Below are positions 12,363 through 57,620 of a DNA stretch of 64,000 nucleotides, piece after piece. The translations under genes were made by a program, and so were the position numbers. This DNA comes from Tigriopus japonicus (Eukaryota > Arthropoda > Copepoda > Harpacticoida > Harpacticidae). The stretch is from NCBI GenBank assembly GCA_010645155.1, contig CM021318.1, forward strand, positions 9,162,897-9,226,896, given 5' to 3'. Numbering within the stretch: position 1 is the stretch's first letter; each line of letters opens with the position of its first letter. The notes under the pieces were generated by a model. That model was not told where the DNA came from. It was given only the letters and a program-made list of their open reading frames with translations, and ran no database searches.

Positions 12363-15300
12363 ATGACTGGGCTCAAGGTATGCATTTAATCCAGATTAAT
12401 CCAGTCAGTTTTAATGATGCCTTGCGGGAATGATGGGTATTGAATCTGAGAATATTGACTGATCCTCTTCATTTTAGTTTTTGGTGCTTTGCTTGCTGAC
12501 CGTCCAAGCATTGGCTGTACCTCATCCCTTTGCTTCGCCTCGAAAAGATTGCCGATTGGAACGAAGCCGAACGGATACCGGCCAATGCTTCTTGGAGCCC
12601 GAATGTGAGGAGAAGTGCAACACGGTCAATGAGCAGAAATGTTCCACCGTCAAAGAAGATGAATGCTCCACTGTCAATGAACAAGAGTGCTCCACCAAGA
12701 ACGAGAAGCAATGCCGTACGATCCAGGAACAAAAGTGCAGCACAGTCCAATCCCGATCATGCGACACGGTGACCGAGAAGAAATGTTCCACAACCAACGA
12801 GCGTGAATGCCAAACCGTGACTGACACGGTCAACGAAAGGAAATGTGAAACGGTCAACGAGAGGAAGTGCTCGACCAAGAACGAACGGGAATGCACCACT
12901 GAAAATAAGCAGAAGTGTTCCACGGTCCAGGAGAAGGAGTGCCGAAATGTTCCCGAAAGAGAATGCAAGAAGGTGCCCAAACAGGAGTGCAACACGGTCA
13001 ACGAACGGGCTTGTGAGACGGTCAACGAGCGAAAATGCGAGACCGTCAACGAAAGGAAATGCGAAACGGTCAAGGAACAAAAATGCGATCGAGTCATGGA
13101 ACGGAAGTGTGAGCAAGTTCAGGAACAGCAATGTCGGAATGTGCCAGAACAGGAATGCAAGACCGTCAATGAGAGAAAATGCGAGACCGTCAATGAGCGA
13201 AAATGCGACACTGTCAACGAAAGGGAATGTAAGACCATCAACGACAGGCAGTGTTCCACCCAGATGGAGGAACAGTGCTCCACCAAAATGGAGCGGGAAT
13301 GCTCGACGACGAATGAACAAAACTGCGAGACTGTGAACGAGGAGAAGTGCGATACCGTTAACGAAAGGAAATGCGAAACGGTAAATGAAGAGAAGTGTTC
13401 CATGGTTCCCGAACAAGAGTGTGCCACCACCCAAGAGCGGGAATGCCAGACGGTCAACAAGCAACAATGCCGAACGGAGCAAGAACAACAATGCTCAACC
13501 GTGAATGAGCAAGTTTGTAAGGACATCCCCGAGCAAGAGTGCAAGACGGTCCAGGAACAGGAATGTAAAACCACCATGGAGAGAAAGTTTGAGGAGCAAT
13601 GTTCCACCATCAACGAACAACAATGTAAAACCGTCCCTGAGCAAGAGTGTAAGACCGTGAATGAGCAAGAATGCAAAACAGTCAATAAACAAGAATGTAA
13701 GACAGTGATGCAACGGAAAATGGAACAAGAGTGTACCACTGTCAATGAGCAACAATGCCGAAACGTACCCGAGCAACAATGTTCCACGGTCATGGAACAA
13801 GAATGTTCCACCACAGATTCCCGAACAACTGAGAATCAATGCACAACCGTCAATGAGCAGCAATGTACGACTATTAACGAACAGAAATGTTCCACGGTTA
13901 ATGAACAACAATGCTCAACCCAGTTCGAGCAACAATGTTCAACAGTCATGGAAGATGAATGCTCCACCACTAACAACCAGCAATGTACAACGATCAACGA
14001 ACAACAGTGTTCCACTGTTAACAAGCAGCAATGCTCCACCGTCAATGAACGATCATGCTCTACTGTCAACGAGCAACAATGTTCCACGGTGAACCAACAA
14101 CAATGTTCTACTGTCAATGAGCAACAATGCTCGACCGTTAATGAACAACAATGTTCCACTGTCAACGAACAACAATGCTCCACGATCAACGAGCAAAAGT
14201 GTACCACCAACATGGAACGCGAGTGCTCCACCACTTACGAGACCGTCACGGAACAACAATGCTCCAGTGGAGGTCAGGCACAATGTAAAACCGTGTATGA
14301 CACCAAGAACGAACAACAATGCAGTACCGTGAACGAGCAGCAATGCAAAAAGGTTTGGAAACAGGTTTGCGATGGGGGAAACTCGGGAGGTCACGGCAGC
14401 TCATCTGGCAGTAGCTCCTCTGGAAGCTATGGCAACAGTGGAGGGCATAAGAGATGGAAGAGAAGTGCCAGTCCATTCTTCTTGAAGAAGTTGCAGAAAC
14501 TATTTGGCAAGAACAATAACAACCGAGGCGGACATCGCCGTAGTTACAATAATGGTGGTGGGCACAGACGAAGCTACAACAATCACGGAAGGGGCAACAA
14601 CCAAAACTATGGAGGAAACCGAGGTCACAGAAAGATCAACAACGGAGGTCAGTTCCAACAACAACAAAACCAACAACAATGTCGAATGGTGGAACAGCAG
14701 GAATGCAATACTGTTCCAAGACAACAATGCTCCACTGTTACGAAGCAGGTTCCTCGTCAAGATTGCTCAGGTGGCAGTCAACAAGTCTGTAAACCAGTAA
14801 GCCGTCAAGTGCCTAAGGAGAGTTGTCGCAATGTGCCAAGACAGAGTTGTCAGAATGTTCCCCGACAGCAGTGTTCCAATGTTCCCAAGCAACAATGTCG
14901 CAATGTCCCTCGACAGGAATGTAAGACTGTTCCTCGTCAACAATGTCGAAATGTACCATCTCAACAATGTAAGACCGTTCCTCGGCAGAACTGTCAAATG
15001 GTTCCACAACAAAGATGTTCCAATGTACCCCAACAGGAGTGCAAAACTGTACCCAGGCAATCGTGCTCCAATGTCCCAAGCACTCAATGTAAGAAGGTTC
15101 CAAAGCAAAGTTGCAAATCGGTTCCTGTGCAGAAATGCAACATGGTTCCCCAACAGAAATGCCAGAATGTACCCCGACAACAATGTCAAAACGTTCCCCG
15201 ACAACAATGTAAGCAGGTTCCAAGAAACAACCCGATGCAACAATGTCGAATGGTTCCCAAGCAGAAATGCACAACGGTTAACTCCCAGAAATGCGAGAAT

Positions 15301-16479
15301 GTTCCTCGTCAGAAGTGCTCAATGATCCCGAAGATGACCCCTCAACAAGAGTGTAAGAATGTTCCACAACAAGAATGCCGGAATGTCCCCAAGCAGCAAT
15401 GTCAAACCAAGCAGACCCAAAAGTGCGAGAATGTTCCACGTCAAGAATGCAAACAGGTGCCTCGCATGGTTCCTGAGCAACAATGTCGAACGGTTCCTCG
15501 CCAAAAATGTGAGACCAAGACGAGGAAGCAATGTCAAAACGAGCCTCGCCAACAATGTCGTACCGTACCCAAGCAGAATTGCCAGACTGTCCCAGAGCAA
15601 GAATGCAAGAATGTTCCAAAACAGTCTTGCAAGACTGTGATGAAGCGAATGTGCCAAAATGTCCCGCAACAGAAGTGCAGAAACGTTCCAGAGAGGAAAT
15701 GCCAAACTGTTCCACGGCAGCAATGTAAGAACGTTCCTAAGGAGGAATGCCGGATGGTTCCAAAACAAGACTGCAAGAAGGTACCCAAGGAAATGTGCCG
15801 GAATGTTCCCAAAGAGATGTGTCAAAATGTCCCTCGGGAAAAATGCCAAAACGTTCCAAGACAAGAGTGTAAGAACGTCCCAGAACAGAAGTGCTCCACA
15901 GTCCAAACCCGTAGATGCGAATCGGTCCCAAGGGAAAAATGTAGCATGGTTCCAAGTCAACAATGTCGCGATGTGGATCGAGAGGTTTGCAAAAATGTTC
16001 CTGAGCAGAAATGCCGTGATGTTCCACGGGAACAATGTCGCAATGTTCCTCGACAAGCTTGCGAAACCGTTCAGAAAGAGGAATGTCAAACAATTCAAAA
16101 GGAACAATGTCGCATGGTTCCCAAGCAGGAATGTAAGAACGTGCCAGAACAAGTTTGCAAAAACGTTCCCAAAGAGGAATGTAAGGATGTTCCGAAGCAG
16201 GATTGCAAGAATGTCCCGCGACAGGTCAGTCGACAGGATTGTAAGAACGTTCCTAAGGAAGTATGTAAAGATGTTCCCAAACAAGAGTGCCGCAACGTTC
16301 CCAAGGAAGAATGCAAGACTGTTCCACGAGAGGAATGTCAAACCATTCCTCGCCAAGAGTGTAAGTCAGTACCGAAGCAGAAGTGTCAAAAGGTCGACAA
16401 ACAGGTTTGCAAAAACGAACCGCGTGAGGTTTGTGAGGAGCAATGTGAGGATCTCTATTGGTGCAAGGTCTGCAATTGA
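12363..16479 (+). CDS. Secreted cysteine-periodic charge-block repeat protein (paralogue A, 1338 aa)
   Basis: Exon 1 (12363-12377) encodes MTGLK. After a 100-bp phase-0 intron, exon 2 (12478-16479) continues FLVLCLLTVQALA, completing a signal peptide cleaved near residue 18. An N-terminal box C-x5-C-x3-C (12586-12618) opens an acidic repeat region to about residue 636, built on CxTVNEQQ/CxTVNERK. A linker (about 637-739) is rich in Gly, Ser, Asn and His and holds HKRWKRSASPFFLKKLQKLFGK-type basic sequence (14446-14511). A basic repeat region built on CxNVPRQQ then runs to the end, closed by C-x3-C-x5-C-x2-C (16432-16473). I estimate roughly 150 cysteines. Linkers between them are almost always 7 or 11 residues. 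Extracellular disulfide-linked structural material is inferred; I recognise no named family. A nearby paralogue follows at 18685. Confidence 0.9.
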
Positions 16480-18684
16480 AAGGTTCAATCAATATCAATC
16501 AAGCTTTAACTTCTTGACATACTCAAAGGAGCCAGCCAAGTCATCCGCATCATGTGCAAAATCATCATCATTCTCACTGCCAATGTCCATCCGTGATAAC
16601 TTTGAAATATATCCAGTTACCGAAAATGTCTCTTGTCCATTTTATGTCTTATTTGTCATTTCTCACGCAATACGCGCGTTTTACAAATAACAAACAGTAA
16701 GAATCAGTTCATTTTTAATCGATCTCGTTTTTAGAGATACTGAATTGAATGACAATCCAAATTAGTTTTCAAATGTTGCAATACCTAATATGAGGGTATG
16801 GTTAAATTGAACAAGGAAGTATGGCTGAACAGCGGGACATTTAACAAATCTTATAGCTTAGCGATAAGCCACTTGAAGCTTTCCATTCGCACTCGATGTG
16901 TTATCTTGTAAATGACTTGAAATATGTGTCTGGCTTGCTTTTCAAATATACGATATTTTCTGCTCAATGATTACTCAAGGATCGTTGTTTACTCTAGGGT
17001 TTTAATGGCTCAAAAACGACCAACTTTTGGCGTTATGGTTTTCATGTTGAGCCACTTGAATGACAACAAGTCTAAGTGAAGCTTCAAATCTGTCACAGAA
17101 ATTGAGTGCTAATTGAGTTTTCGTGTTTGAAGTTGACAACTGATGAATTGTTGAAGCCATGAAGAAGTACAGTGCAACGTACTACTCCAGCATATTTGCT
17201 GCTTTTCTAGAATTCTAAAGACAGAGATTGAGACCTTGCAGAGAATTTTGTACTTTTTGAAAGTTTTTTTTCAAATTTACAGTCTAAGAATCCCAATGTA
17301 TTAAGAAATAGAAGTTGTTTTATACATTTTCCTGTTGAAACCATTGGGTTTACATATGGAGGGTGCGTGTGAGCGTGATTAACTCGCCTTGAAATGGAAG
17401 ACGGTTCATTTTTGACGAGAAGAAGAAAGCTAATGGTTCCAGAACAGATTGAATAACTTCATGATTTAACAAGAAAAATGTCTCAAAATTTAACAGGACC
17501 AAGACTCAAACAGAATTCACATCATGTTATAAAACCTGATTTGCTCTTGTGACGACCATTGAACCATCACCAAAATATGAATCCACTGAAATCAACCATA
17601 AAGGGGCAATTGTATATCGTGCTTTGGGTGCTTCTCAAATCATGGACACATCAACTTTTATCAAAAACAGAGCCTTAGGGAATCAATTCATTTTGGTGTT
17701 TACCTACAACCTTGTAAAATATGAAAGGAGGTTGTAAATGACTGATAAGCATATTTCATTTTGTAAACCTTCGTTTGCAATTAGTAAGGCAAAAATAAGT
17801 GATTTTGTTATGATTGCCAACAGGCAAAGATTTATGTGTCACCCTGTATGAGCCTCGATTAGATCTGAAACAGACGCCGGTTATGTACTAAAAATGCCAA
17901 AATCTACACTTGGACCGCCGACCCTGTAACTTCGTGTACTCGATCAAGTTAACAATTTTCAACAACAATTCACCTATTCCCAAAAATCCAACTTACGTAA
18001 GTCTGTCGATTTTCTTCGAACCGGCAAAGTAATCCCTGAACCAAACCACTAATTAAATCTCTTCATGAAGAACAATTCATGTCTTGATTGTATTATGCAT
18101 GATTTTTCAATCTAAAACAACGTCCCACTGGTTCCAATTCTTGGTAATTGCCAACTGCTAGAAAAAAATGAGAAATATTACTCATGTAATACCAAAAAAA
18201 TTACGATGGACTGATAACGTGCCTGAAGAAGGCTCATTGTATATTCATCGGACTCAAACTTGATTCGACTCGGTGCATCTACGTAACAAAACTTTGATTG
18301 AACATTAAGAAGGAATCTTTTTTTTTTCAAGTCAGATGAAATGCCCAAGCCTTTAAGATGAATCTCAAGTCATAGCCTGGATGCTAAATGTTATCCAAGT
18401 GACCTTGAAACAGTTTGGAGTGACCTATGAACATGGCCATCATCAGCCAAGTTTTCTAGCTTCTCGTTCAAATTCACCGATTGTCAAAGTCGATATTTGT
18501 GCGCTATCGCTTTGAAACTCGAAAAGAGATGCTCAAAAAGACATCTTGATTGTCTTAAACGAACGAGAGAAAAGGAATGGGTCAATTCGTAAATGTCACA
18601 CTCCCTCGCCAATTGACCCTCATCCCTTAAGTGTCATGGTATTGTTTAGTTCTCTACGAAATCAGTTCGATTTCTGCCCTCAAA
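16480..18684. other. Spacer between paralogues A and B; no gene seen
   Basis: About 2.2 kb of AT-rich DNA. No canonical AATAAA occurs in the first 400 bp after the stop of the upstream gene, so its 3' end is not defined here. Near 17838 the words GTGTCACCCTGTAT resemble a single transposon end with no visible partner. Confidence 0.4.
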
Positions 18685-21600
18685 ATGGACACATTTCTCT
18701 GGTTCATAGTAAGCAACTCGTCTTTAGTATTGAGATTCCACATATTGTTACATTTCATGCTTGGGTTTCCTTTAGGTTTGCGTCCTCTTCAATGGATGCT
18801 TAATATCCAGTTTTCCGCACGACTCATCACAAAACTTAAATCGTAAAGAGCGACAGGCTTTGCACTCAAGAAGGCAACTATTGGCAAAAGGTCTTTTGTC
18901 CTATTTGCCACCCAAAAACGAAACCATTGTTCCTGAGGAACCAGAATCTATCTTTGAAGACTCTAAATCAGAGGCCAATTGCCCATCTCGAGTTTTTGAA
19001 AGTGAAATGGAAGCCAAAGAAGCGGGAGTTCTGAACGTGACCAAATGTCAAATGGAAGAGCATTGTGAGTCTATTTGTCAACTCTACGAAGAATGTAAGA
19101 TCACAACCGACGAGGTTTGCGAAAGTGGTGTTCCAAATGAAGATGTCACTTGTCGAATTGTGGAACAAGAGTTTTGTAATGGCACAAGGATAGAGGAAAC
19201 TTGTATGGAAGCCATGGAGGAAAAATGTCAAGTAGTCCAAAAGTTAGAATGTCTGGATGTATTTCAGTCTCAATGCCGTGAGGAGGTTAGTGAGGAATGT
19301 AATCCAAACCCAGTTCCGTTTTGTATTGAGGTTCAAGAAGAAGTTTGTCGAAATATTTCAACCCCCATTTGCAAAGTAGTTCCAGAAGAAATTACAAACT
19401 TGGAATGTTCCAATGTTGAACCGGAAAATGTTTGCCAAGAGATCATAAAAGAGGAATTGGAGGAGGTTTGTTCCCACGTTCTGGATGAAAATTGTCGCTT
19501 AGTTGAGGAAGAGGAATGCCAGAGGGAAAATGTGGAGCAATGTCAAGAACTGGAGAGAATTGAAGAAGTGGAAGAATGTTCCGAAGTTAATGAAGAACAA
19601 TGTGAAACTGTCAATGCACCTCAATGCGAAGTAATTCAAAAGAGTAATTGTACTGAAAGTACCTTGCAAATACCAGAAATTCAATTGGATTGTCAACCTC
19701 AATTCAAACAACAATGCCGAACTATTGATGAGCAAATATGTACGGTCAAACTCGTTCAAGAGTGTGAAAATATCACGGTATCCAAAGCTGAAGAGCAATG
19801 CAAAATTGTTCCACAAAAGGTATGCCAATTGGTTCAAGAAGAAGTTTGTGAGGAGGTGGTTGAAGAAGAATGCCAAGATATTACCGAAAATGTCGAAAAC
19901 GAAGAATGCTCCACAATACAAGATCGAAGTTGTCGTGAATTGAAGGAAGAAAAATGCGAGATTGAAAACGTGGAACGCTGTGAGGTCGTTAACCGAGTTG
20001 TGGAACAACGCGAATGCGAGAATGTTCCTCATGAAGAATGCTTTTCTACTGAAAAAGAAGTTTGTGAGGAGAGCAAAACAACCGTGGTCGAAATTGTCGA
20101 TGAAGAGGTTTGTGAACTCGTCGAGGAGACAGTTTGTGAAATGGGATATGTCACTGAGGAGCCCGAATGCGAAAATGTGGATCGCCAAGTTTGCCAAGAT
20201 GTTCCAAAGTCACAATGTGAGACGATTCAGGAGGAAAAATGCGAAACCATTCAACAAAACACTACAGAGAACAAGTGTGAGGTAGAGAATGAACGGATTT
20301 GTCAAGAAAAAATTGAACAACAATGTGGGACAGTGGTGGAACAAGAGTGTGGACCAAAAGTACAAGAGGTTTGCGAAGATGTTGTTCGTCAAGATTGCCA
20401 AATGAAGACCAAGACCGAGTGCTCAAATGTAGAGAAAGAAGTTTGTCAAACAACCGAAGTTAAAGAATGTGGAACAACCATGGAAAAGGAATGCAACATT
20501 GTTCAAGATATGAAATGTTCCATCAATTATATACAAAATTGTCAGACCGTCAACGTGGAACAATGCGATGAAGATGTTCAACTGGATCTCTATGGACCGC
20601 CCAAAACATGTAAACAAGTTGCCAAATTGGAATGCAACGACGAGCCAAAAGAGACTTGTGAGGAAATTTCCAGAGAAGTTTGCCAAAATATTCCAAAAGA
20701 GACCTGCCGAATGGTTCCAAAGCGAGAATGTCATTCAGAACTTATCCCAGAATGCAAAGAGGTTTTGAAACAGGTTTGTGAAGATTTGATAGAACCCAAG
20801 TGTTCTCAAATCGAGAGCACAGCTTGCCAAGCTGTGGAAGTCGAAAAATGCCAAGAAATTCCCCAAGAACAATGTGAAATCGTTCCACGAACAGTTTGCA
20901 GAGACATCGAGAAGGTAATCCCACTAATTCGATGCGAGTTTGTTCCTAAAGAAAAATGTCAAGACGTTTTGGAACAAATGTGCGAAATGAAGCTAGAGGA
21001 AGTTTGCATTGGTGGGGGCATGAAAGAAGTGGAAACATGTGTGCCCGTTCCTTTCCGAGAATGCAAGATTGTCCCACGGAACAAAACTCGGGAGATTTCA
21101 ACGCCCAATTGCCGCACAGAGCAAGTTGAAGAATGTCGGAATGTTTTCAAAAAGGAATGCAAAATTGTTCCAAATAATGTAAAGGAGACCCAATGTCAAC
21201 TTGTTCCAATGGAAAAATGTCAAAATACGTCACGGGAAATTTGCGAGGACATACCCAAAGAAGAATGTAAGTTGGTTCTTCAACCAACATCGAGAATAGA
21301 ATGCAATCCTGTGTCAAAGACGGAGTGTAAAGAAGTTGAGAAGGAGAAATGTAATGAAACACCGGAGGAAATATGTCAACCAGTGGTCATTGAAGTTCTT
21401 GAAGAGCAATGTGACAATGTTCCACAAGAAGAATGCCAACTTGTTCCCAGGGAAGAATGTCAACAGGTTCCAGCAGGACAAACTTGTACTGAGATTCAAC
21501 TGTCTCCTGTTGCTTCAAATTGTGGCACTTTTCCAGAAGAGGTCTGCCGTGATGTTCCAAATCAGGTGTGCCAGAATGTTCCTCGACAATCTTGTCAATA

Positions 21601-22219
21601 TATTCAGGTTCCAGTGGAAGATGTGGTCTGTTCCGAAGTACCCAAAGAAACTTGCAACATTGTCGAAAAAGAAGTTTGTGAACCTTTCGAACGAGAAGTG
21701 TGCGAAAAAGTTCCACAAGAAATTAGAGCTCAAGAGTGTTCATTGGTTCCACAAGACCCAATTTGCGTTAACCTGACCCAAACTGTGAATCAGGAGACTT
21801 GTGAAGACATCATAACTTTGGACTGTAGCCTTCAACCTGACGAAAATTGTACAGACGCTCAAACGGAAACGTGTGTTTTAACCACCTACGAAATTTGCGA
21901 GGACGTTCCAATTCGGGATTGCCAAAATGTTCCCCAAACCATCTGTCAAAACGTCCCATGTCGTGATTGTCAACTTCAGGAGGTTCCTAACTGTTCCAAA
22001 ATAGAAACACAGCAATGTGATCCCGTTCAAAGCCCTGATCAACAACAAACTTGTGAAATGGTTACCAAAGAATCTTGTGGTGATCCATTTGAGCAATGCC
22101 AAGAGATCTGTTCCAATCGGCTGCATTGTCCAGTCTGCGATCTGGTTCCAATTGAAAAAAATGTGGTAACGAAGATTTCGTCGCTTCTTCAACTTCAGGT
22201 GCCAGAAAATGACCAATAA
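18685..22219 (+). CDS. Secreted acidic cysteine-periodic repeat protein (paralogue B, 1155 aa)
   Basis: Exon 1 (18685-18708) encodes MDTFLWFI. A 67-bp phase-0 intron (GTAAGC...TTTAG) follows. Exon 2 (18776-22219) continues VCVLFNGCLISS, completing a signal peptide. The mature start holds basic HSRRQLLAKGLLSYL. The repeats are far more diverged than in paralogue A and rich in Glu with few basic repeats, but cysteine spacing is still mostly 8 or 12 (for example CKVVPEEITNLEC). A box C-x5-C-x3-C-x5-C opens the region (19046-19096) and C-x3-C-x5-C-x2-C closes it (22097-22138). There are about ten N-x-S/T sites, including NVT, NIS, NCT and NLT. The gene lacks the Gly-rich linker and the basic VPRQ half. 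Its stop codon lies inside an AATAAA hexamer. The gene is clear; the function is unknown. Confidence 0.88.
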
Positions 22220-22220
22220 A
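22215..22220 (+). terminator. AATAAA signal overlapping the stop codon of paralogue B
   Basis: The hexamer contains the TAA stop (22217-22219). The context CAATAAAGTGG resembles CAATAAAAGTGG downstream of the third paralogue (52126), suggesting a homologous 3' end. A second AATAAA at 22564-22569 could serve instead. Confidence 0.5.
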
Positions 22221-22850
22221 GTGGTGATTTATCTTCATCGGGACTTGATATGAAATATTCAGAGAGAACCGTGATTAATTGAAGACGCCCATCTTGTTTC
22301 TTTTTTTTGGCGGGCGTTGTGGAATTTTATTCTTGGGTTTATTTGTGAACTTCATGCATCTGTTGCCAAGGGTCACGCAAGCTTGACTTGTGCACATTTT
22401 CGACAAGAATTATCTGATCATGGAATATGTGCTCACTCAAGATGAATACAAACAGGTTTTACTTGCTTCAAAGAATCATTTGTATTTTTGACTGCCATAC
22501 TGACCTCCCAAATTTTGAAATCAAATCCAAAAAACTATCCATGCCTTTCATGAATTATTTGTGAATAAAACATGTTTTCATGGACGTTTAAATCTTCAAT
22601 AAGACTTTATACTGCAGTTCACCTGGCTTTATTGCAAGATGTTTAATTATTTCTTTTTGGCAATTTCTGACTTTGAATCATAACTCATCTTAAAACCAAA
22701 CGAGGAGAGTCATTCTTAAATTCAAATCAACTATTCAACATCTTTGTACTACAGTAAAAAACAAGACAACATCTTCTCATCCCAAGTACTTGGTGTCCCC
22801 AAGTAAAATTACGTAGGATCGATGACCTTGGGATTGAAGGAGGTCTCTGA
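22221..22850. other. Downstream of paralogue B; no gene seen
   Basis: AT-rich DNA with an alternative + strand AATAAA at 22564 and TTTATT (AATAAA on the - strand) at 22628-22633. Confidence 0.4.
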
Positions 22851-23054
22851 TCAAGATTGATGGCCATTTTTTCCCCTCTTCTCCGGAGTCCAAAGTTCAA
22901 AGTCAAATTCTCGTCTTGTAGGTAGCTTCTTTACACTCGCAAAATAGTCCGTCATGCATTCCTGTAACTGTTTGAGAGTGTTCCAACAAACGACGGGGTA
23001 TGACTTGGAATATTTTAGAGCTGTTGTGACATGATTGGCTTCAAGTGAACTCAT
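22851..23054 (-). CDS. Hypothetical small protein, 67 aa
   Basis: An intact ATG-to-TGA frame with a protein-like, charged and non-repetitive composition. It begins MSSLEANHVTTALKY, contains CWNTLKQLQECMTDYF and ends in a basic tail (EKRGKNGHQS). It has no signal peptide or membrane segment. An AATAAA lies about 220 bp past the stop on the same strand. I do not recognise the family. It could be a single-exon small gene, one exon of a larger gene, or chance. Confidence 0.33.
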   Translation of the reverse strand: MSSLEANHVTTALKYSKSYPVVCWNTLKQLQECMTDYFASVKKLPTRREFDFELWTPEKRGKNGHQS

Positions 23055-29000: not shown

Positions 29001-29218
29001 AAATTTCCATTATCCCATTTTGGATGGGGTCATTTAAGGCATCCCACAGTGGATAACTTCCGTCCCTTGGATTCACCCTTCTTTCTGTTGAGCACCTTTA
29101 AATACACTATTTGTTGATATTAAATGTATTTTTTCTAATGTCTTTTTGATTGATTTGAAAAAGGCGGCATGTTAACGTAACTAATTCAAAAAACTCGAGT
29201 ATACCAAAATCGAGTTAG
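23055..29218. other. Gene-poor stretch, no supported feature
   Basis: Six kilobases of mixed AT-rich DNA. Open frames reach 117 codons (25260-25613, +) but none has a recognisable domain, signal peptide with splice site, or supporting poly(A) context. Just before the assembly gap (29190-29218) the word TCGAGT recurs, and it recurs again after the gap. Confidence 0.4.
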
Positions 29219-29381
29219 NNNNNNNNNNNNNNNNNNNNNNNNNNNNNNNNNNNNNNNNNNNNNNNNNNNNNNNNNNNNNNNNNNNNNNNNNNNNNNNNNN
29301 NNNNNNNNNNNNNNNNNNNNNNNNNNNNNNNNNNNNNNNNNNNNNNNNNNNNNNNNNNNNNNNNNNNNNNNNNNNNNNNNN
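29219..29381. other. Assembly gap (163 N)
   Basis: A run of N. Both flanks carry CGAGT/ACTCG words (29195-29217 and 29470-29525), so a short repeat may have caused the break. Confidence 0.97.
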
Positions 29382-38300: not shown

Positions 38301-38468
38301 CGGATGAAATCTAGCCCCAACGCGGATCAATTTAATCGAACCAGGAACAACTTTGGCCAAGTTACTCCTATCCTTTGGCGAATACATAAAAAAACTGATG
38401 CTGAGAACCAGAGTGGATGGCTGTCAAAAATAGCTACAAATTGGCGATGCTCGAGTACAAAGATGTGG
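29382..38468. other. Gene-poor stretch, weak repeats only
   Basis: No gene is supported. The word CTGATCACTGAAGAGAA occurs at 34181-34197 and 34315-34331, with a degraded relative near 34551. At 32700-32912 the + strand has a protein-like frame (67 codons, SETAYFTLEISAYFQRRP) of unknown meaning. At 36900-36912 TTGGGAACCACTG looks like one hAT end without a partner. Confidence 0.35.
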
Positions 38469-38564
38469 ACATCCATTATTTTTTTAATCCTCGTTTATAG
38501 TGCGTACGTTATGCAAGCGGCCAGACCTGTGTCGGATACCATTGTAATGTACTTAATTAATTAA
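38469..38564 (+). CDS. Possible small secreted peptide or signal-peptide exon
   Basis: From the in-frame ATG at about 38462 the frame reads MWTSIIFLILVYSAYVMQA, then ARPVSDTIVMYLIN and a stop. The hydrophobic core followed by small residues is a good secretion signal. The mature part is only about 14 residues. Alternatively the exon splices at ATTGTAATG before the stop and encodes a neuropeptide or secreted-protein precursor whose other exons I cannot find. A CATAAAA word lies about 80 bp upstream. Confidence 0.28.
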   Translation, partial: TSIIFLILVYSAYVMQAARPVSDTIVMYLIN

Positions 38565-41468: not shown

Positions 41469-41670
41469 NNNNNNNNNNNNNNNNNNNNNNNNNNNNNNNN
41501 NNNNNNNNNNNNNNNNNNNNNNNNNNNNNNNNNNNNNNNNNNNNNNNNNNNNNNNNNNNNNNNNNNNNNNNNNNNNNNNNNNNNNNNNNNNNNNNNNNNN
41601 NNNNNNNNNNNNNNNNNNNNNNNNNNNNNNNNNNNNNNNNNNNNNNNNNNNNNNNNNNNNNNNNNNNNNN
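41469..41670. other. Assembly gap (202 N)
   Basis: A run of N flanked by CCCGG on the left and GGGTTCC on the right. The two open frames reported across it are artefacts of the N run. Confidence 0.97.
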
Positions 41671-43997
41671 GGGTTCCACTTTCCGTAACGGAAAATCAAT
41701 GCAACGATGTTCCAGAAAATTTCATGTCAGTGCTTAGCGTCAATTAAGATGGTGTGAAGAAACAAAAATATATTACCATCTTTTAAGTTTCTTTTGGTTG
41801 AAATAGGTGATTTGTATGCATTAAGATCGTCTTCCCACGATGTTTTATTCACCTCGATGGAGGTCAGATTACAAAAAGTTAGAATTGTTGTACACAAGTT
41901 TCTCTCCACACAATTTACGTATGCTTCAAAATGGAACAATGTTTCAGTCGTGATAACTTTTGGCGCAAAAAGTGCAACGTATGTAGTGAGTTTTCGCTAG
42001 TGATTGTTGTCGGTTTCATTGGAGGATTCCCAAGACAGAAAAAGAGCTTATTCGACCACAAAAGATCTCGAAATAGGAAGTAAAAACAAAAGAAAACCCA
42101 GGGCGAAGGTCGCAGATGAATGAGTAATGATAGCAACGCCATGGGAGGGACGACCAACGACATAAGGAGGATGATCTAATTTCAAGTCATCCATCCAAAC
42201 CTTGAATATTTGTGCCCATTGAAAAAAATACTCAAAGAAAAAGAAGTTCAATGCCTTTCCCAATTTGGGTTGATGGATAGACGTGGAATCAAATCAGCCA
42301 GGAAGTCCTGAAATGCAAATAAAAATTGGCGAATCCTGCTCGCTTCTTGTCGTCCTTGACTTGACACTTGAAGTGCTCTTCTTCAAGTATCTTTACCCTT
42401 AATAGCCTGGCTCTAACGTTTCGTTCTGAAGTGCTCCAACTATTGAAACTAAAGAGGTCTTCGAATTCGCCGTTGCTTGTACTGCATTTATATGGACAAA
42501 GAGACAATGTATTACTTACTTGTGATTTGTATTGTTTCTGTGATTTTTTCTGACATTCTAATATATCATTAACCAAAAACAAAGATATGAAATTGGGTTT
42601 AAAAAGAAGTTCCTAACTGGGTGGAAAAGAAAACTTTGAGCAATCGCTGAAAATTACTTACATTAGGAGCAACTCGGAAGCTATCAGATCATTCACTTTA
42701 AAATGCGTTTTTGAACGAGTGTTCAAAGGATTATGGTTTGGCAGTTACGGAAAAATTTGTGGAATGACACGATTAATCGATGTTTGGCTTCACTTTGAAG
42801 AGTGGTGATAAATTGCGTATATATCCTTGTCTTTGTTTTAGTTCGCGTAGATGTAACTGCAAAAAGAAATATATTCTAATGCACACACTTTTTGCGATCG
42901 AATTCAAGGCAATTCTACTTTGTTCAAGTGACATTGAATTGAGAATCATTTATCACATTTTTAGCAGTCAAATTGTTGCCCAAGCTAGTCAAAATTGTTT
43001 GTTATAATAATCAACTCTAGAATCGCCAGTTTCTGACATAAATTCAATGGTTAAGTATTTTGCATTAAATCACATGTCAAAATACTTAGTTCCTTAGACA
43101 TTCCAATTAACTCCTGGCAGTCATCTATTCATCTAGGAACTGAATCGAAACAAATATCTTGGTATGAATAAAACAAAAAGGCACAAAATGCAGTTTTGAA
43201 AAGTTTAACCGACTTTGTAATCAAGTGTTCCCGCCAATGACAAAGATGTCAATGAGCAGGCAGCCGAGTAAAGTGGAAAGTCATCGTTGTTAGTTTTCAG
43301 ATCGCGGAAATTGCGGACAATGCCAGTCCCAGGGATCGATTCCGACCGACGATGCCCTCACTCAAAAGACGTCAAAGTGGATAAAAGATTCATTCAAAAA
43401 AATCCTTGAAGTGACTCGAATCCAATTTGAAGGTGGTCGAGCTTCCCAGAAAGGTGCAAGCAACATCTCAGCCGAAATAATATTTTCCCTGGACTTGACA
43501 ACGAGTGGGCACTTCTGTACGTAGGCAGGCTAAGAAGCAACAAAGCTTTGCGGTCGCTAAAACATCAAAAGTGGCCTGCAAAGTGAACACACATCCGTTC
43601 GTACATATGGATGTACGCGTGCACACATTGAGATCCTACCTCAAAGTTCAATCGTCCGTTAATCATTATACTTACCATATCATGACGAGCGTTCAAATCA
43701 CTCAAGGGAATCTGTGCACATTCTATGACGCAAGGAATATGAAGTCATCATCATCATCCAAACTCTTCACCCCGTGCCCCTTACAAGTCGATTTAATCCA
43801 ATAAAGTCATCGTTTGTCAGGGTGTTTGGTTTCAATTAGGTGACACCAATGGACAAAGGCAAATGATGAATCGCCAAAAAGTATTTGCGGACTCGTCTTC
43901 AAAGTGGACAAATGAAATGTGTAATGTGCATTTGCGTACGATGTGCATGCACGCGTATAAGCATGAATTATACTTGGGTTAAGAGAGTTGTTGGCAC
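41671..43997. other. Gene-poor stretch, nothing supported
   Basis: AT-rich DNA with open frames up to 99 codons on either strand, none with recognisable domains or splice support. Confidence 0.4.
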
Positions 43998-44259
43998 TAG
44001 TGATAGGCCGGAAGAACCGTTAACCGAAACCGACACAGGTTTGCACTGAAAGGAGATCTCAACTCAAGGGAAGTTTCTGATCATATATGCATGCTTTATG
44101 TTCAATATAAAAAGTCAGTTAATGGAAAAATAATAAATAGCCATTCAGTTTTGTCCGGGTACATCTTATTGGGAGATCTGGTTGACATAAGATTCAAACC
44201 CAAGCCCCTTCGTTGCAGCGAATACTACCGAAACCGAAAGGGCTTTCAAACCATCACTA
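43998..44259. mobile_element. Probable hAT-like MITE, 262 bp, degraded
   Basis: The left end TAGTGATAGGCC and the reverse-complemented right end TAGTGATGGTTTGAAAGCCC share TAGTGAT. Both subterminal regions carry ACCGAAACCGA words in inverted orientation. The flanking 8-mers (GTTGGCAC and GTTAAGAT) agree only at GTT, so the target duplication has decayed or the edges are slightly wrong. There is no transposase frame. Confidence 0.5.
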
Positions 44260-44280
44260 GTTAAGATAACGTACATTTAC

Positions 44281-44472
44281 CGCAAATTGAGTTGTCTCCA
44301 ACGCCTTCGATGAACAAGTACATGATGATACCAGGAACTGCTCTCGGTAAAATACATACAATCCACAGAGAATTCCCGTCTATGCGCGTCAGATTCCGAC
44401 AAAACAAGACGCTCTCCAAAACGTCGTCGTCGACATCTTTAAGAGGACCAAAAAAATCACCGTAAATTGGGC
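44281..44472 (-). CDS. Possible internal exon, unknown protein
   Basis: On the - strand a 192-bp segment lies between a strong acceptor (TTCTGTCTTTGTTCCAG) and a GTAAAT donor. It is open in only one frame and symmetrical (phase 1 to phase 1), as is common for extracellular modules. It reads GPIYGDFFGPLKDVDDDV, then a Cys/Trp-containing hydrophobic stretch (SLWIVCILPRAVPGIIMYLF). I do not recognise the domain. A - strand signal-peptide-like frame lies about 0.8 kb upstream (near 45280) and might belong with it. Confidence 0.3.
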
Positions 44473-47337
44473 CTGGAACAAAGACAGAATATCGAGCAAA
44501 GATGCTCATCTTTGCCAACAAGACTTTTGAGGCTTAATTGCGATGATGAGGGTTGATCGAGATTGGCAAGAAGCTTCTTTTAGCGATGCGTTTGCTAGAT
44601 ATGAAAAGAGATTGCCAAAACCGCATTGCAACACATACGTATGATATGAACCATTGTACTATAATGCATTGTGGTAACCAAACCGACCGAGAGAAGAGGA
44701 TAAATGTCAATGATGTTTAATGAACAGTTCCCATAGAATGCGTCAGAATAATAGATACGTAGATCGTCAATCCTCCTGTGGTAAAGCGTTGGTGTAAGAT
44801 TGCTCAATTGCCATGTAAATCAATGCGCATTCTCAACGCGTTGTCGTAAAATGAGATTCAATCAATCCGTGAAAAAAAGAGGCAGGAACTGGTTAAATCC
44901 CTAACGTTAGTGTATAAAATATTCGTTGTTGATGAAGTGGTTGGTTGTTCGTTTGCCGACAAGAATCTGAGGTATGAAAATACTTATTTAATACCAATGG
45001 TTACTCATCCGTTTGGCATGACAATTGAGAACCTCAGTGACCCCTCTATTTTTAGAAGACTGGCCGAACTTGAACGCTAATTTGCATTTGTGACATGGAC
45101 TGAAGGCCGATGAAGATATTCATTTCTAACACTGAGTAATTCATCATAAACTGTGCCAAGCATGAAAAAATGAATTTTGAACACATTTTGAAGGTCACAC
45201 GTGAGAGTTGCTTTGCTACACCTTATGACACCTACGAACATCATCGCCAACACCAACAATCGTGGCATTTTCCAACCAACAAAACCAACCGTCTTCATCG
45301 TCTTTAACATCTTGATGTGGTGCTTAAAGGCGACGCTTTCGTGGCTTCGCATTATTTCGCAGTCGGATGAAATTTGCATATTGCAAAAACCAAAACCAAA
45401 ATTATATTCGCTCCTTCCAAAGCGACTTTGGGTTGGTTCAATTACTGGCACTTGGATGTGGCTGTAGAAGGAACACAAGGTATATCTGTTCGTAGATGGT
45501 TCAAGCCCCATTAGACATCCTTTCTAAACAAGCATTTTTCCCTTACTTTGTCGAGTTAACTGCATTGTACATTTAAAAATAACCCTCCATTCATCCACTC
45601 GCTGAGTGGAAAGGTTTGAGGCGAGCGTATTTCATCAGCACGCGTTCTGTAACATGTTGAAAATACAGTCTTGACAATATCGACCATACGAAAGCACTAA
45701 AGCACAAAATCATCAAATTCACAAATGTTCAAAAAGTACGATATGCCACATGCAAACCAAGGGAGCGAAAAAATATTCCCGATGACATGACATCTATTCT
45801 TCAAGTGTCCGGTCGGCTTAGTACTGCATTCATATTTGAACTCTGAATCCAAGGCTGACGGGGTTGTCCACCATCAAGTGCATTACCATGATGGATATTC
45901 ACGCATTCCCAATGATTCCTGAACCCGGTAGTATCGATGGTGGGCAGAAAGGACTTCCAAAATATTACCCGTTTCGGAAGATGATCCCACTTCTCCCCTC
46001 TCTTCAATTGACGATGGATTCCAGAATTCAAATCAAACTTCCTTGTTGGCTTTATGATGAACTGATCCGAACATGAGAGGAAAGTTTCGACGCGTTTCCA
46101 ATCGAAACACGCCAATGAACAAACGTACAGGGTCATCCACATTGGTGCTCGACAGATCGTTAGTTCACTTCACTTTTCTTTTGCATTCATTTTGCCCCCG
46201 GGGAAATCCCTCACAGGCCCTAGTTAAATGTACAGCATGCAAAGGTACAACCACGCATGAAAAAACTTTGCAGGAGCGAAATCATGAACTGCAACTTCTC
46301 ACAGGGTGTTGTTTGACTAAGGACTACAACGAATATTAATCAACAATAAGATTCCAAGTGGAAAACTTCCGGCTAGCCCCATCTCACCGCTTTAGCGCTT
46401 CCATTTGGACGACAAAAAATGAGAAGAAACGGTTCAAATTGTTGGTGATAATGGAGGCACAACTTGGAGCATAACAATGCTACCGGGACTGTTTTGATAA
46501 TTTTTGTTTCAAATGAACCGTTTACGGAAGGAAGTTTTCATGCAACGATTCAAAAAATTTCCTCAAAGTTGGATGTGACTAATGATGGTCAATGGATGTT
46601 GTTGATGCGTCGGTGGCCGCTTTGCCTTCATGCTACCATATGCCACAAAAGATTGATGGAACATTGGGCATTGTTGTATCTGACTTGCGGCAAGAATACT
46701 TGACGCTTTGAACCCTGATCGATCTTGACATGTTGGCTTCTGGGAAACGAACACCTATTGATCATTGCACAGTTGCCCATCGTGCCTTTCGCCCAAAATA
46801 CCTATGGTGAATTGGATTTCAGGCTGAGGAAGTAGCAAGGTCGTTCTCTGTGCTTTCGAGTTTCGCGTGTTCAACAATTTGGATTGTCAAAGTCTCAAAA
46901 CATCGAGTTACGAGAAAAGGATACGAATGCTTTCAATAACTCCCCCTTCAAGTTTAAGTAAAATATTCAAAGTGCTGAGTTAGGATTTGAAATCAACAGT
47001 GCCATAAATTGTGTGTTCGAATCGACAGTCCCCAAATAGATAACATCACTTTGTCGCTAAATATGTACATATTTTTCAGGTTTCTTGGGAGGTCTGCATG
47101 TGAAAAAAAATGTTGAACTGTGAACGGCGTCACCACGACTGGGCTCCTCTAAAAATGGCCAAAATTGAATGGAAAATTGCCAAAAGTGTGTTTATTGAAA
47201 TTGAGGGAAAAGAGATCAAAACCAACGCATTTAGAAAATAATTCAATTTGTAACAAGTCAACGATGCTCTATTTGTATGCTGTAGACTCCTAATTTTCAG
47301 CATTTGAAATTTTGAATATTTTTCTCACAATTCAGTG
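44473..47337. other. Gene-poor stretch with one secretory-looking frame
   Basis: On the - strand a frame ending at 45077 contains MPRLLVLAMMFVGVIRC preceded by further methionines, which resembles a signal peptide, then about 55 residues to the stop. It may be a first exon. No other support is visible. Confidence 0.25.
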
Positions 47338-47359
47338 AATTGTAATTGCAATTACAATT
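47338..47359. repeat. Perfect 22-bp AT-rich palindrome at a transposon-like end
   Basis: A perfect palindrome centred on TAATTGCAATTA, followed at once by ACTCCCCATCCCTG. Reversed, the sequence starts CAGGGATGGGGAGTAATTG, a hAT-like end. No partner end was found nearby, so this looks like one surviving terminus. Confidence 0.45.
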
Positions 47360-49306
47360 ACTCCCCATCCCTGCATGAAATAAGGGTTCACTTGAAACGG
47401 CTAAAGAGATTAGTACTCCTGATGGACGGTTTATCAAACACACTCTTGAAATACTTAGATATTTGAATCAGCGTTGTGAATAAACGACTAAATTTCTAAG
47501 CTCTAAATGGCAGCATAAAATCCAGTAGTGTTACAAAATGCATCAAAGTGGGTGACAATCAATGAATATATTGTCATGGAATGCTGTGTTTTGTGTAATT
47601 CGAAGATGTTCGACTTTTATTTTCATTTTTTACACAACAAAGATGAAATATGCCAGCCTCCTTGATTCAAATAATATTAAAGATTCACCTCGTCCTAAAA
47701 TTAGGTCGCATCTCAGAGAAGAGAAATAATTTTTTGATTGCACAATCAGAATGAGTGAATCGTTTGTTCAAGGTTGTTCATAATGGCACAAGATGAATGA
47801 CTTGATCTATTTTGGGTTACTGGATTGCTTTTTATGGCGTTGATTATTCAGGCATTGCTCATGAACTTTTTATTACAATATTGCTGCTCCGTTCTGATAG
47901 ATACCAAAAATTGAATTATTCAAGTCAGACAATTTAAAGCTCAAAACTGGGGAATGGATGCAATCGATGCAATAGTCAAAGCATCAACCAAACTTTTCGC
48001 AACGGATTCCGACGTTGTTCACCGAACGCAAAACGCTTTGCCTCTTTAAGAATGCAATTAAATAAAATGTTACTCAAATGCATGGGCGCATTTTCCATAA
48101 TTAGAAGCAGCCATGGAAAGATGAAATGCACCTTAAAAGGCAATATAGGTATTCCTGAATCAGAAATGGATACCAAACTATGGGTCATCTTGTAAAGACA
48201 GCTCGGTCAAATATTGGCTAAATATTCATGTTCCCAAAAACTGCTCTATCACTTCAAGTGGTTTCTTTCTGTGGGTTTTGACAATTTTGACAATCACTGC
48301 TTTGGATGCATTTCTTTCTTGGTTTGAGCCAACATGCAGTTCCTCGTTGCTCATTGACATTTAATGCTTTAAAATCTGCTTCTTACTCTTTGCCAAGCAA
48401 GGGGTGCATAATCAGCATATCTCATACCAAGGTGCAAAGTTTGTTAAGGTTTGTTGCCCCAATGCAACTCACAACACCATAGAATCAACCAACTCCATCT
48501 TGACGTGTTTTGCACAAACATCGACATGAATGTATATAAATGGTTACCCGGTTTCAGGCTTACGAAAAAAGAATAACTTTGACCCTGACTCTAAAGACTA
48601 GAGACAGAATCAACCATTCTCTTGTTGGTCGCAACAAAAATGGGCGTAATAAGGGTACATGCACACATACGTCGAAGTCTCAACTGACGCCAAACCTTCA
48701 GGAACGACATGACGCCTTCAAACTTCAAGTAGAGTGGTAACGAATCAGCCTGCATTCTTTCTTTAGGATCTTCTTCACTGCTTAATGGTCACTGGACAAA
48801 CGAACCGACCCAAACCCTATGTCTGAAGAATCGCCAACATTTCCCCTTGCTCGAAGGACGACTCCATTGATTTTTCATGACCAAGCGACTAGACTTCAGT
48901 GTAAGCTAAGCATTCAGTTGTAATCTGTATATGATATGTCTTAACAACATCTAGTCGAGGAATTATGCAGAAAATGGCGAAAAAGCAATAAGTCTTGAAG
49001 AAAGATTTTCCCTCATAATGCCTATAGTCATCCCTCATTTGCTTCGATGCTTCGCGTAGCAACATGAGCGTTGGTTGAGTTGGTTACTGACGTGAGTGCG
49101 TGCCAACGAACTTCCAAGGCGAGAGGCACAAATCATGTGTTGTTGCGTGTACTATACGCAATACGCAAATAGTGAGAAGCGTACGGTGTGCGAGAGAAAA
49201 AGATTGGGAGGGGATTGTAAGGGGGCGGAGAGTCCGGCATTCCGGCCATGGGGAGGAATCGGAATCCTTCAAAAATGACGCGGGCAAGCGTCACTTTTCT
49301 CCCAGG
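47360..49306. other. Upstream DNA of paralogue C; no gene seen
   Basis: AT-rich DNA until about 49080. It is then more GC-rich up to the TATA box, with a GGGGGCGGAG word near 49220 that may be an upstream promoter element. Confidence 0.4.
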
Positions 49307-49314
49307 TATAAATA
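49307..49314 (+). promoter_or_regulatory. TATA box of the third cysteine-repeat gene
   Basis: TATAAATA, 35 bp before the A of a TCAG initiator-like word (A at 49342). The inferred leader is about 87 nt before the ATG at 49429, close to that of paralogue A. Confidence 0.62.
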
Positions 49315-49428
49315 CAAATCTTAGATACTTTCATGACCATCAGGCATTAAGATCAAGGGGTGTAGATCGGAGCTCAACGATCCCTCCTCTAATTTTGTGG
49401 CATTATAACTTATTCGTCTTTTTCCAAG

Positions 49429-52029
49429 ATGCGAACTGCTTTTGTGGTAAGTCGACTAGAATTGCCACGTAACGAAACTTAAGATTGGGCACGAATGGTA
49501 GAGAACTAATCACTTACATTGCTCACATTTTAGGTTCTTTTGGCATCATGCCTGTTTATGCAGGCCATGAGTGGACCCATGTCCAGCCAAGTCATGTTCA
49601 AACGGCTTTTGCAAAAGCGAAGTGCGAAAGCTGAGGCTGAGGCCGATGCTGATGCTGACGCTCAAAGAAATTACGGCCAATCTAATAATGCCGTGGCTCC
49701 CGTATCAAATTATGGCGGTGCTCAGCAAGAGTGCCGGACCGTCAATGAACAACAATGTTCGACTGTCCAAGAGCAACAGTGTAACACGGTTCAAGAACAG
49801 CAATGTAATACCGTCCAAGAACAACAGTGTTCCACGGTCCAGGAGGAGCAATGTTCGACCGTGAATGAGCAACAATGCCGCAATGTTCCTCGCCAGCAAT
49901 GTTCCACTGTCAACGAACAACAGTGCAACACTGTCAATGAGCAAGAATGTCAAACGGTCACTGATACCGTGAACGAGCAACAGTGCAACACAGTTAACGA
50001 GCAACAATGTAACACCGTCACCGAGACCGTGAATGAGCAAGTTTGCAATACGGTCAACGAGCAGCAATGTAACACCGTCACCGAGACCGTGAACGAGGAA
50101 GTGTGCAATACGGTTAACGAGCAACAGTGCAATACGGTCAACGAGCAACAGTGTAATACGGTCAACGAGCAGCAATGTAGCACCGTCGTGGACACTGTCA
50201 ACGAGGAGGTCTGCAATACGGTCAATGAACAAGTTTGCAACACCGTCAACGAACAACAGTGCAACACGGTCAACGAACAGGTCTGCAACACCGTCACGGA
50301 CACTGTTAATGAGCAGCAATGCAACACTGTCAATGAGCAAGTGTGCAACACCGTTTCCGAGACCGTTAATGAGCAGGTTTGCAACACTGTCAACGAGCAA
50401 CAATGTGAGACCGTCGTTGATACCGTCAATGAGCAAGTCTGCAACACTGTTAATGAGCAAAAGTGCGAAATCCAATACATGACCCAATACGAGGAGCAAT
50501 GTAGCACTGTTAATGAGCAAGAGTGTAACACGGTCAACGAGCAAGTGTGCAACACTGTCAATGAGCAGGTTTGCAACACTGTTCAAGAACAGGAATGTTC
50601 CACCGTCCAAGATCAACAATGTACCACCGTCAATGAGCAACAATGTAACACTGTCAATGAACAAGTATGCGAAACCACCACCCGTACAGAATATAGAGAA
50701 GAGTGCAACACAGTCAATGAGCAACAATGTTCCACTGTCCAAGAACAACAATGTTCCACTGTCCAGGAGCAACAATGTAACACCGTTAATGAGCAAGTGT
50801 GTGAGCAGGTCTGTGATCAAGCTCAAGCCACCTATGGAGGATCTTCTGGTGGACTTTCTGGTTATGGTGGATCTCAATCTGCCTCTTCTGGATATGGAGC
50901 TGCCCAACCCCAATGTAGACAACAATGTCGAAACGTTCCTCGCCAACAATGCCAGAATGTACCCCGTCAACAATGCCAGAATGTCCCCAGACAACAGTGC
51001 CAAAACGTGCCCCGGCAACAATGTAACCAAGTTCCATTCCAAGTTCCCGACCAACAGTGCCGTAATGTGCCAAGACAACAATGCCAGAACGTTCCCCGCC
51101 AACAATGCCAAAATGTGGCCCGAGAGGAGTGCCGAAGTGTCCCCAGACAACAATGTAACAATGTTCCTCGTCAAGAGTGCAACAATGTTCCCCGGCAAGA
51201 GTGTCGCAACGTCCCCAGACAAAGTTGTCAACAAGTTCCTCGCCGTGTGGAGGAGCAAGTGTGCAACAACATCCCAAGACAAGTTTGTAACAACGTCCCC
51301 CGCCAAGTGCCCCGCCAAGAGTGCCGCAATGTTCCCCGTCAACAATGTAACAACGTCCCCAGACAGGTCCAACGCCAGGAATGTAACAACGTACCTCGTC
51401 AGCAATGCCAAAATGTTCCCCGCCAAGTCCAACGCCAGGAGTGCAACAATGTGCCTCGCCAAGAGTGCCGCAACGTTCCCAAACAGGAATGCAACAATGT
51501 GCCTCGTCAACAATGTAACAATGTTCCCAGACAGGTCCCCAGACAAGAATGTACCACTGTTCCACGTCAACAATGCCAGAACGTTCCTCGCCAGCAATGC
51601 CAGACCGTTCCTCGGCAAGAGTGCAACAATGTGCCCCGTCAAGTTCCCAGACAAGAATGTCGCAATGTTCCCCGTCAGCAATGTAACAACGTGCCCAGAC
51701 AGGTTCCCCGCCAGGAGTGCCGCAATGTGCCCCGTCAACAATGCCAGAATGTGCCTCGACAAGTCCAAAGGGAGGAATGTAGAAATGTCCCCAGACAACA
51801 GTGCCAGAATGTTCCCCGCCAACAGTGTTCTACTGTTAATGAACCCGTCTGCCAGAATGTTCCTCGCCAACAATGCCAAAATGTCCCCAGGCAACAATGC
51901 CAAAATGTTCCCCGGCAACAATGCCAGAATGTGCCCCGCCAACAGTGCCGAAATGTTCCCCGCCAACAATGTCGATCCGTTCCCAGACAGGTCTGCGAAG
52001 CTGGACAGCCTACATATGGTGGAAAGTAA
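49429..52029 (+). CDS. Secreted cysteine-periodic charge-block repeat protein (paralogue C, 837 aa)
   Basis: Exon 1 (49429-49446) encodes MRTAFV. After an 87-bp phase-0 intron (GTAAGT...TTTTAG), exon 2 (49534-52029) continues VLLASCLFMQAMS, completing a signal peptide. A basic stretch FKRLLQKRSAK and an Ala/Glu/Asp run follow. The acidic repeat region (about residues 67-433) is the purest in the window, mostly CNTVNEQQ/CSTVQEQQ with 12-residue variants such as CNTVTETVNEQV. A Gly/Ser/Tyr linker (about 434-466, YGG motifs) leads to the basic region (467 to about 826) of CQNVPRQQ and CNNVPRQVPRQE units. The chain ends EAGQPTYGGK. It lacks the C-x3-C-x5-C-x2-C end box of paralogues A and B, but C-x3-C marks both sides of the linker. 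Near-identical repeats with synonymous differences suggest recent repeat expansion. Confidence 0.9.

Positions 52030-54625: not shown

Positions 54626-57620
<2,995 letters not shown>

Follow-up and report, generated by a model that had tools for sequence, protein, structure and literature searches.

Mirror-ordered cysteine spacing in three long, secreted-looking proteins of the copepod Tigriopus japonicus and in their relatives

Three cysteine-rich genes at one locus

A 64,000-nucleotide (nt) stretch of the Tigriopus japonicus genome (assembly GCA_010645155.1, contig CM021318.1, 9,162,897–9,226,896, forward strand; hereafter the window, to which all positions refer) carries three long genes, A, B and C, in which the spacing of cysteines (Cys) along one half of the protein returns in reverse order along the other half, a mirror symmetry absent from the original prediction for this locus. 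The three plus-strand genes of that prediction were recovered at their positions (Table 1) with a common exon structure, consisting of a short ATG exon within the signal peptide (5–8 codons; A, 15 nt; B, 24 nt; C, 18 nt), a phase-0 GT–AG intron (A, 100 nt; B, 67 nt; C, 87 nt), and a single long exon. Putative signal peptides were recognised in all three, as claimed, with both these and the splice sites judged by eye from the sequence, and after splicing the proteins (A, 1338 amino acids (aa); B, 1155 aa; C, 837 aa) sum to 3330 aa, in line with the >3300 residues expected.

Cys makes up 11.2% (A), 10.8% (B), and 10.3% (C) of the residues, with 85–149 Cys per long exon. The 8-residue Cys period was borne out by 128 (A), 84 (B), and 62 (C) Cys pairs eight apart, whereas 500 composition shuffles gave at most 28, 24, and 15; successive-Cys steps of exactly 8 (A, 128; B, 83; C, 62) were likewise far above composition shuffles. 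Gene C is the most regular and gene B the most diverged of the three, as had been described. End motifs said to be common to the family were found in A and B (6,4 as Cys steps close to the start, 4,6,3 at the end), while gene C has neither. A six-frame scan of the window for stretches with at least four Cys pairs eight apart returned none outside the three genes.

Mirror order and the codes between facing units

Mirror order was measured on the proteins of the long exons (P0001–P0003, from genes A, B and C) as the number of Cys pairs with a constant sum of positions (i+j, in the numbering of P0001 for A and P0003 for C), omitting signal-peptide Cys, i.e. those that precede residues 20, 40, and 60 in the long exons. 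For gene A, 73 of 74 possible pairs fall at i+j = 1364 (maximum, 51 in 1000 gap shuffles; 0 reach the observed value) and for gene C all 42 of 42 fall at i+j = 884 (maximum, 32 in 1000 gap shuffles; 0 reach). The steps of gene C run 8,8,8,8,8,8,8,8,8,12,8,12,8,12,8,8,8,12,8,8,8,12,8,12,8,12,8,12,8,8,8,8,8,8,8,12,8,8,8,8,4,34 and then through the same list reversed, with zero exceptions, and in gene A 72 of 73 steps are mirrored on either side of a 104-residue step, the outermost alone differing (12 vs 3). The diverged arms of gene B retain the order, with 36 of 60 pairs at one exact sum (maximum, 36 in 1000 gap shuffles; 1 reaches) and matched steps that include 16, 11, 9, and 12. Allowing local slack, 60 rungs were paired in gene B, leaving 1 of 121 Cys unpaired and 53 of 59 steps equal (score, 86, compared to ≤33.5 in 60 shuffles). 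The inner five of its six unmatched steps (6/7, 11/12, 9/8, 14/12, and 8/9) cancel, so that both arms measure 497 aa (Cys 73/1080 to 569/584); these steps may possibly be intermediate stages of compensating insertions.

Steps other than 8 coincide when the arms are read antiparallel (A, 8/8; B, 10/19; C, 10/10), with at most 4 (A), 6 (B), and 7 (C) such coincidences in 20,000 shuffles of the arm-2 gaps; in parallel order the coincidences number 0/16, 0/30, and 4/16. Mirror steps were found for 9/9 of the 12-residue steps of arm 1 in gene C, at distances of 106–586 residues, and for 6/7 in gene A, at 136–1120 residues. The positions of the odd steps differ among A, B and C, implying that the mirror has been maintained separately in each gene. 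DNA inverted repeats were rejected as its origin, with only four pairs of 18–22 nt found in A and B and none found in C. We know of no mutation that yields a reversed protein pattern, and, given this and the scarcity of DNA inverted repeats, the mirror is read as selection for pairing.

Residues were compared between facing units and the same units slipped along the ladder, using charge products as the score. In all three proteins the products were lowest in the true register at a diagonal offset of +2, two residues from the direct partner (A, −58 vs slip minimum −41, 0/63 slips reach; B, −20 vs −9, 0/40 slips reach; C, −32 vs −28, 0/30 slips reach), an offset first seen against permuted units with nine offsets tried. 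At unit position 5, glutamate (Glu) faces arginine or lysine (Arg/Lys) and swaps are mostly matched (pooled table [[86,4],[2,7]], Fisher p 7e-7). Proline (Pro) follows a code of its own: 7/7 arm-1 Pro units of gene A face non-Pro units (Fisher p 5e-7), and the sole arm-1 VPRQ-type unit of gene C lies exactly opposite the sole TVNE-type unit of arm 2. Within the 8-residue units Pro occupies positions 2, 4, and 6 only, the parity of the Cys (126/126 in the window proteins; 305/307 and 228/232 in two sets of relatives). Cross-strand disulfides of beta-hairpins favour non-hydrogen-bonded sites, where the backbone NH points outward and Pro is tolerated; reasoning from such hairpins, the +2 diagonal would suit the other face of the hairpin. 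Mirror spacing, register-specific charge complementarity, and proline parity are established by the sequences.

Table 1. Positions of the features of genes A, B and C in the window
Feature	Positions	Strand	Remarks
TATA-like TATAAAA 5' of gene A	12247-12253	+	motif match only
Gene A	12363-16479	+	whole gene
Gene A exon 1	12363-12377	+	signal-peptide start; GT donor at 12378
Gene A exon 2	12478-16479	+	remainder of 1338-aa protein
Gene A N-terminal cap	12550-12618	+	Cys steps 12,6,4
Gene A arm 1	12616-14370	+	585 aa; acidic; TVNEQQC-type units; net -31
Gene A central loop	14371-14679	+	103 aa; rich in glycine, serine, asparagine, histidine; single furin-like RWKR
Gene A arm 2	14680-16434	+	585 aa; basic; NVPRQQC-type units; net +64; mirrors arm 1
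Gene A C-terminal cap CEEQCEDLYWCKVC	16432-16473	+	Cys steps 4,6,3; 4,6 mirrors 6,4 of the N-terminal cap
Gene B	18685-22219	+	whole gene
Gene B exon 1	18685-18708	+	
Gene B exon 2	18776-22219	+	remainder of 1155-aa protein
Gene B arm 1	19076-20566	+	497 aa; net -87
Gene B central turn DEDVQLDLYGPPKT	20567-20608	+	14 aa
Gene B arm 2	20609-22099	+	497 aa; net -47; mirrors arm 1, with divergence
AATAAA overlapping gene B stop	22215-22220	+	
TATA-like TATAAAT 5' of gene C	49307-49313	+	motif match only
Gene C	49429-52029	+	whole gene
Gene C exon 1	49429-49446	+	
Gene C exon 2	49534-52029	+	remainder of 837-aa protein
Gene C arm 1	49732-50814	+	361 aa; TVNEQQC units; net -53
Gene C arm 1, sole VPRQ-type unit	49876-49902	+	among 31 rungs with 8-residue steps; faces 51826-51852
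Gene C central loop	50815-50913	+	33 aa; glycine, serine, tyrosine, alanine
Gene C arm 2	50914-51996	+	361 aa; NVPRQQC units; net +39; mirrors arm 1 exactly
Gene C arm 2, sole TVNE-type unit	51826-51852	+	among the same 31 rungs; faces 49876-49902
AATAAA 3' of gene C	52126-52131	+	

The TATA-like boxes lie 116 nt (A) and 122 nt (C) 5' of the ATG; none was found within 200 nt 5' of the gene B ATG, nor an AATAAA within 400 nt for gene A. Elsewhere in the window, a class I tRNA synthetase (54626-57127, minus strand; tRNA-synt_1 and Anticodon_1 domains), which from its sequence we take to be the mitochondrial-type isoleucyl enzyme, and a kinesin motor protein (59689-61992, plus strand; PF00225, E 1e-121), presumably a kinesin-II subunit, were identified.

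Relatives in eukaryote-like and bacterial-like sequences

Homologue searches returned 83 relatives with gene C as the query, among the 7990 candidates sharing most words that were scored, and 10 with gene A; in two single-protein scans of bacterial and archaeal genome contigs, no relative was confirmed. The relatives are nearly all unnamed and were divided into bacterial-like (49) and eukaryote-like (23) sets, a split of our own that relies on features of the sequences together with the small number of source names (Bacteriovorax for P0048, P0057, and P0060). The original statement that the family could not be assigned to any known one needs qualification in view of the relatives in these two sets. 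P0006 and P0007, whose source is labelled merc and which we take to come from a marine eukaryote transcript catalogue, share with gene A the N-terminal cap ECEEKC, an acidic arm, a long loop, and a VPRQ arm, and P0006, though not P0007, ends in YWCKIC as gene A ends in YWCK.C; this resemblance is at most a hint of a marine arthropod host. Gene A has all the features of the P0006 family (ECEEKC start, YWCK.C end, acidic arm followed by VPRQ arm), while gene B has the cap spacing with other letters and gene C has both arms but not the caps.

A significant local palindrome (p 0.01) was detected in 76 of 90 proteins, comprising A, B, C and relatives, bacterial included, and in 75 in a 200-shuffle rerun. 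The relatives had been collected by similarity, not by symmetry, and the neighbouring synthetase and kinesin (P0004, P0005) and P0084, with zero Cys, were omitted. Ladders of the significant relatives have 8–25 rungs, shorter than those of A, B and C, and the bacterial-like ladders use differing step alphabets (mostly 8; 7 and 8; 8, 9, and 10), most being mirrored with a few small mismatches. At the exact mirror centre of 65 short loops, Asn-Gly (asparagine-glycine) occurred in 28 and Pro-Asp-Gly (with aspartate) in 7, and a glycine occupied that centre in 46/56 loop segments, compared to 203/2104 other segments. The +2 offset was again the strongest, falling below the slip mean in 29/30 eukaryote-like groups and 68/79 bacterial-like groups, though the bacterial-like sequences are mutually related and their protein counts are not counts of independent events.

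By eye, the step lists of the eukaryote-like P0010, P0012, and P0025 resemble several smaller palindromes in a row, and these proteins seem to be single chains with two or three hairpins. P0009 joins a mirror ladder to a reprolysin-like metalloprotease domain and P0011 joins one to a precomputed Pfam domain, presumably of amine-oxidase type, which gives the ladder the look of a portable stalk. For P0008 a precomputed PF27846 domain was not reported by the Pfam copy scanned. P0033 (645 aa) is a reverse-transcriptase-like protein (precomputed PF00078) that continues with 15 Cys at intervals of 8 in gene A-like units, and is perhaps a retroelement beside or inside a ladder gene or a fusion of gene models. 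Furin-like RX[KR]R sites were observed in the long loops of gene A, P0006, P0007, P0015, P0024, and P0087; in A, one such site is expected in ~13% of shuffles. Cleavage at these sites in gene A and several long-loop relatives might, as a weak suggestion, leave two chains held together by the ladder.

A probable disulfide-zipped hairpin and its alternatives

Each chain very probably folds back on itself at its central loop, giving an antiparallel beta-hairpin that dozens of disulfides zip into a long, thin rod. Arms 1 and 2 would form a two-stranded beta-ribbon with the central linker as the hairpin loop, and the kth Cys from one end would bond the kth Cys from the other, giving ladders of ~73 disulfides in A, up to 60 in B, and 42 in C. 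As almost all Cys of A and C are mirrored exactly by another Cys of their own chain, most disulfides are expected to be intramolecular rungs. In A and C an acidic arm 1 (TVNE) would meet a basic arm 2 (VPRQ), with Glu placed diagonally to Arg/Lys helping to set the register, and Pro, restricted to positions with an outward NH and so leaving the ladder unbroken, may keep ribbons from packing against one another at their edges. The matched 12-residue steps of A and C would act as register keys that penalise slippage, since a slip by one unit keeps only 64/73 pairs in A (a loss of 9) and 31/42 in C (a loss of 11).

On entry of the chain into the secretory pathway, the central loop would bring the innermost Cys pairs together and the hairpin would zip outward as charge pairs steer the strands and disulfides fix them in place. 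Taking 0.33 nm per residue, the fully extended arms would span ~193 nm (A, 585 aa), ~164 nm (B, 497 aa), and ~119 nm (C, 361 aa), which strand twist would shorten. Zipped covalently, the resulting rod would be stiff and would serve as a strut or filler in extracellular material. We infer disulfide formation, the beta conformation of the window proteins, their rod shape, tissue, and function from sequence; in cuticle, gut lining, gland secretions, or egg coverings, a plausible use would be as a stiff strut that resists proteases.

An AlphaFold2 model of the bacterial-like P0028 (39 bacterial-like sequences) places strands at 52–174 and 181–305, followed by a further beta region, and the six-residue break between the strands is centred on 177.5, the palindrome centre obtained from sequence alone. 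This model has a predicted template modelling score of 0.49 and a mean predicted local distance difference test (pLDDT) score of 76, mostly 52–78 in the ladder, and was read for strand assignment, not for strand pairing or Cys–Cys distances.

These shortcomings count against the hairpin, as do several other results. A 280-residue fragment spanning the gene C loop (4-sequence alignment) reached a pLDDT of 28 in AlphaFold2 and gave no usable model. The mirror of gene B is inexact (6/59 steps unequal), both of its arms are acidic, and a homologue search with it returned zero matches. Other charge offsets deviate too, more weakly in the window proteins (A at +4 and +1, B at 0); among the bacterial-like sequences offsets 0, −4, and +3 also deviate, while +1 and +4 are opposite in sense. 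Matched charge swaps are absent at unit position 1 (p 1). The Pro facing rule reaches only p 0.065 in C alone, where arm 2 has another non-Pro unit that lies opposite an ordinary one, and is not significant in B (p 0.61) or P0006 (p 1). Units within one protein are related, as are the bacterial-like proteins, so these tests are not fully independent. Finally, 14 of the 90 proteins have no significant mirror (P0007, P0019, P0020, P0033, P0036, P0043, P0053, P0055, P0066, P0067, P0083, P0086, P0090, P0093), several of which are taken for fragments or non-relatives.

Mirror spacing and register-specific complementarity would fit equally well, again to the detriment of the hairpin, in an antiparallel homodimer, in which two chains lie head to tail with arm 1 of each bonded to arm 2 of its partner and the linkers crossing at the dyad. 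We consider this arrangement unlikely, as linker length ranges from 14 aa in B through 33 aa in C and 103 aa in A to 300 aa in P0006 while the arms stay mirrored, as expected of hairpin loops; the short loops of the relatives carry at their mirror centres Asn-Gly and Pro-Asp-Gly, the classic tight beta-turns; and the P0028 model, two long strands on either side of a short break, is of a single chain. The original prediction implied a crosslinked network, which would have Cys mainly joining different chains into an insoluble matrix and arms without a fixed partner. High Cys, glutamine, and asparagine content and apparent secretion suit such a material, and Cys-rich cement proteins exist in a copepod (PMC6947537). 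A network, however, would not call for the mirror order, the register-specific charges, or the matched swaps, each of which is present, and the same-chain mirror partners of nearly every Cys in A and C disfavour it further, leaving it very improbable. Still harder to credit is a triple-stranded beta-helix like the C-terminal domain of phage T4 gp5/VgrG, for which the evidence is a match of PF22178 (Gp5_trimer_C) to gene A at 53 bits (cut-off, 30.9) and a score of 25.6, below the cut-off, for gene C. Gene B has no PF22178 match, and a parallel trimer predicts no mirror between arms, whereas the mirrors of A and C are near perfect; the match in gene A is read as a period-8 coincidence.

Returning to the hairpin, mirror-spaced Cys ladders are probably a general, undescribed architecture of animals and bacteria: single chains doubled back into covalently zipped beta-rods of up to ~190 nm, registered by charge and step and kept by compensating insertions up to ~1100 residues apart. 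If so, every locus would preserve a legible history of the coevolution of two strands, and the code would offer a programmable, genetically encoded design for stiff nanometre rods. The mirror, spanning >1200 residues, gives what had been an anonymous Cys-rich repeat protein a structural prediction with a bond-by-bond map of its disulfides. It also raises the questions of how a cell oxidises ~70 disulfides in the correct register, how an insertion of 4 residues in one arm acquires its match in the opposite arm, 106–1120 residues distant, and whether the bacterial and eukaryote ladders reflect common ancestry or convergence.

Among named families, a Pfam scan of P0001–P0003 at E up to 1 gave PF22178 as the sole match, with no EGF, TSP1, or cuticle-protein (e.g. 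chitin-binding R&R) model, and searches of Pfam, NCBIfam, and PDB gave no match accounting for the ladder, with the provisos of PF22178 (A) and PF27846 (P0008). The description of the family as secreted-looking, Cys-rich, and lacking a name in Pfam or NCBIfam is supported, apart from the PF22178 match, which is read as coincidental. The beta-helix of T4 gp5/VgrG is a parallel trimer of 8-residue repeats, and its likeness to gene A lies in that repeat; it offers no reason for mirror spacing. In the literature within scope (predicted cellular-protein structures, preprints, and most subscription papers fell outside it), no description of end-to-end mirrored Cys spacing was recognised. The female cement gland proteins FCGS1–6 of the salmon louse are secreted, 11–16% Cys, and built with EGF and TSP1 domains (PMC6947537). 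They resemble A, B and C as Cys-rich and secreted or secreted-looking copepod proteins and illustrate the use of such proteins in the cement of a copepod, but EGF and TSP1 domains were not found in A, B or C.

Similar in kind are the unnamed Cys-period-8 proteins collected here (P0006, P0008, P0009, P0028, P0048, and others), which have the same mirror, +2 offset, and Pro parity and differ in their shorter ladders, some joined to other domains, such as the C-terminal beta region of P0028. The known class is that of the theta-defensins and other disulfide-laddered beta-hairpin peptides (the cystine ladder), which have two or three rungs; theta-defensins themselves are very small peptides with about three disulfides. 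The likeness lies in two antiparallel strands with stacked cross-strand disulfides, as predicted for A, B and C, and in Cys pairs of constant i+j, found for 73/74 pairs in A, 42/42 in C, and 36/60 exactly in B. With 837–1338 aa and 85–149 Cys in the long exons, the three proteins lie far outside the size of the theta-defensin family, and they differ from the peptides of the class at large in their 42–73 mirrored Cys pairs and their spacing and charge codes. In mirrored code and in scale they exceed the small cystine-ladder hairpins.

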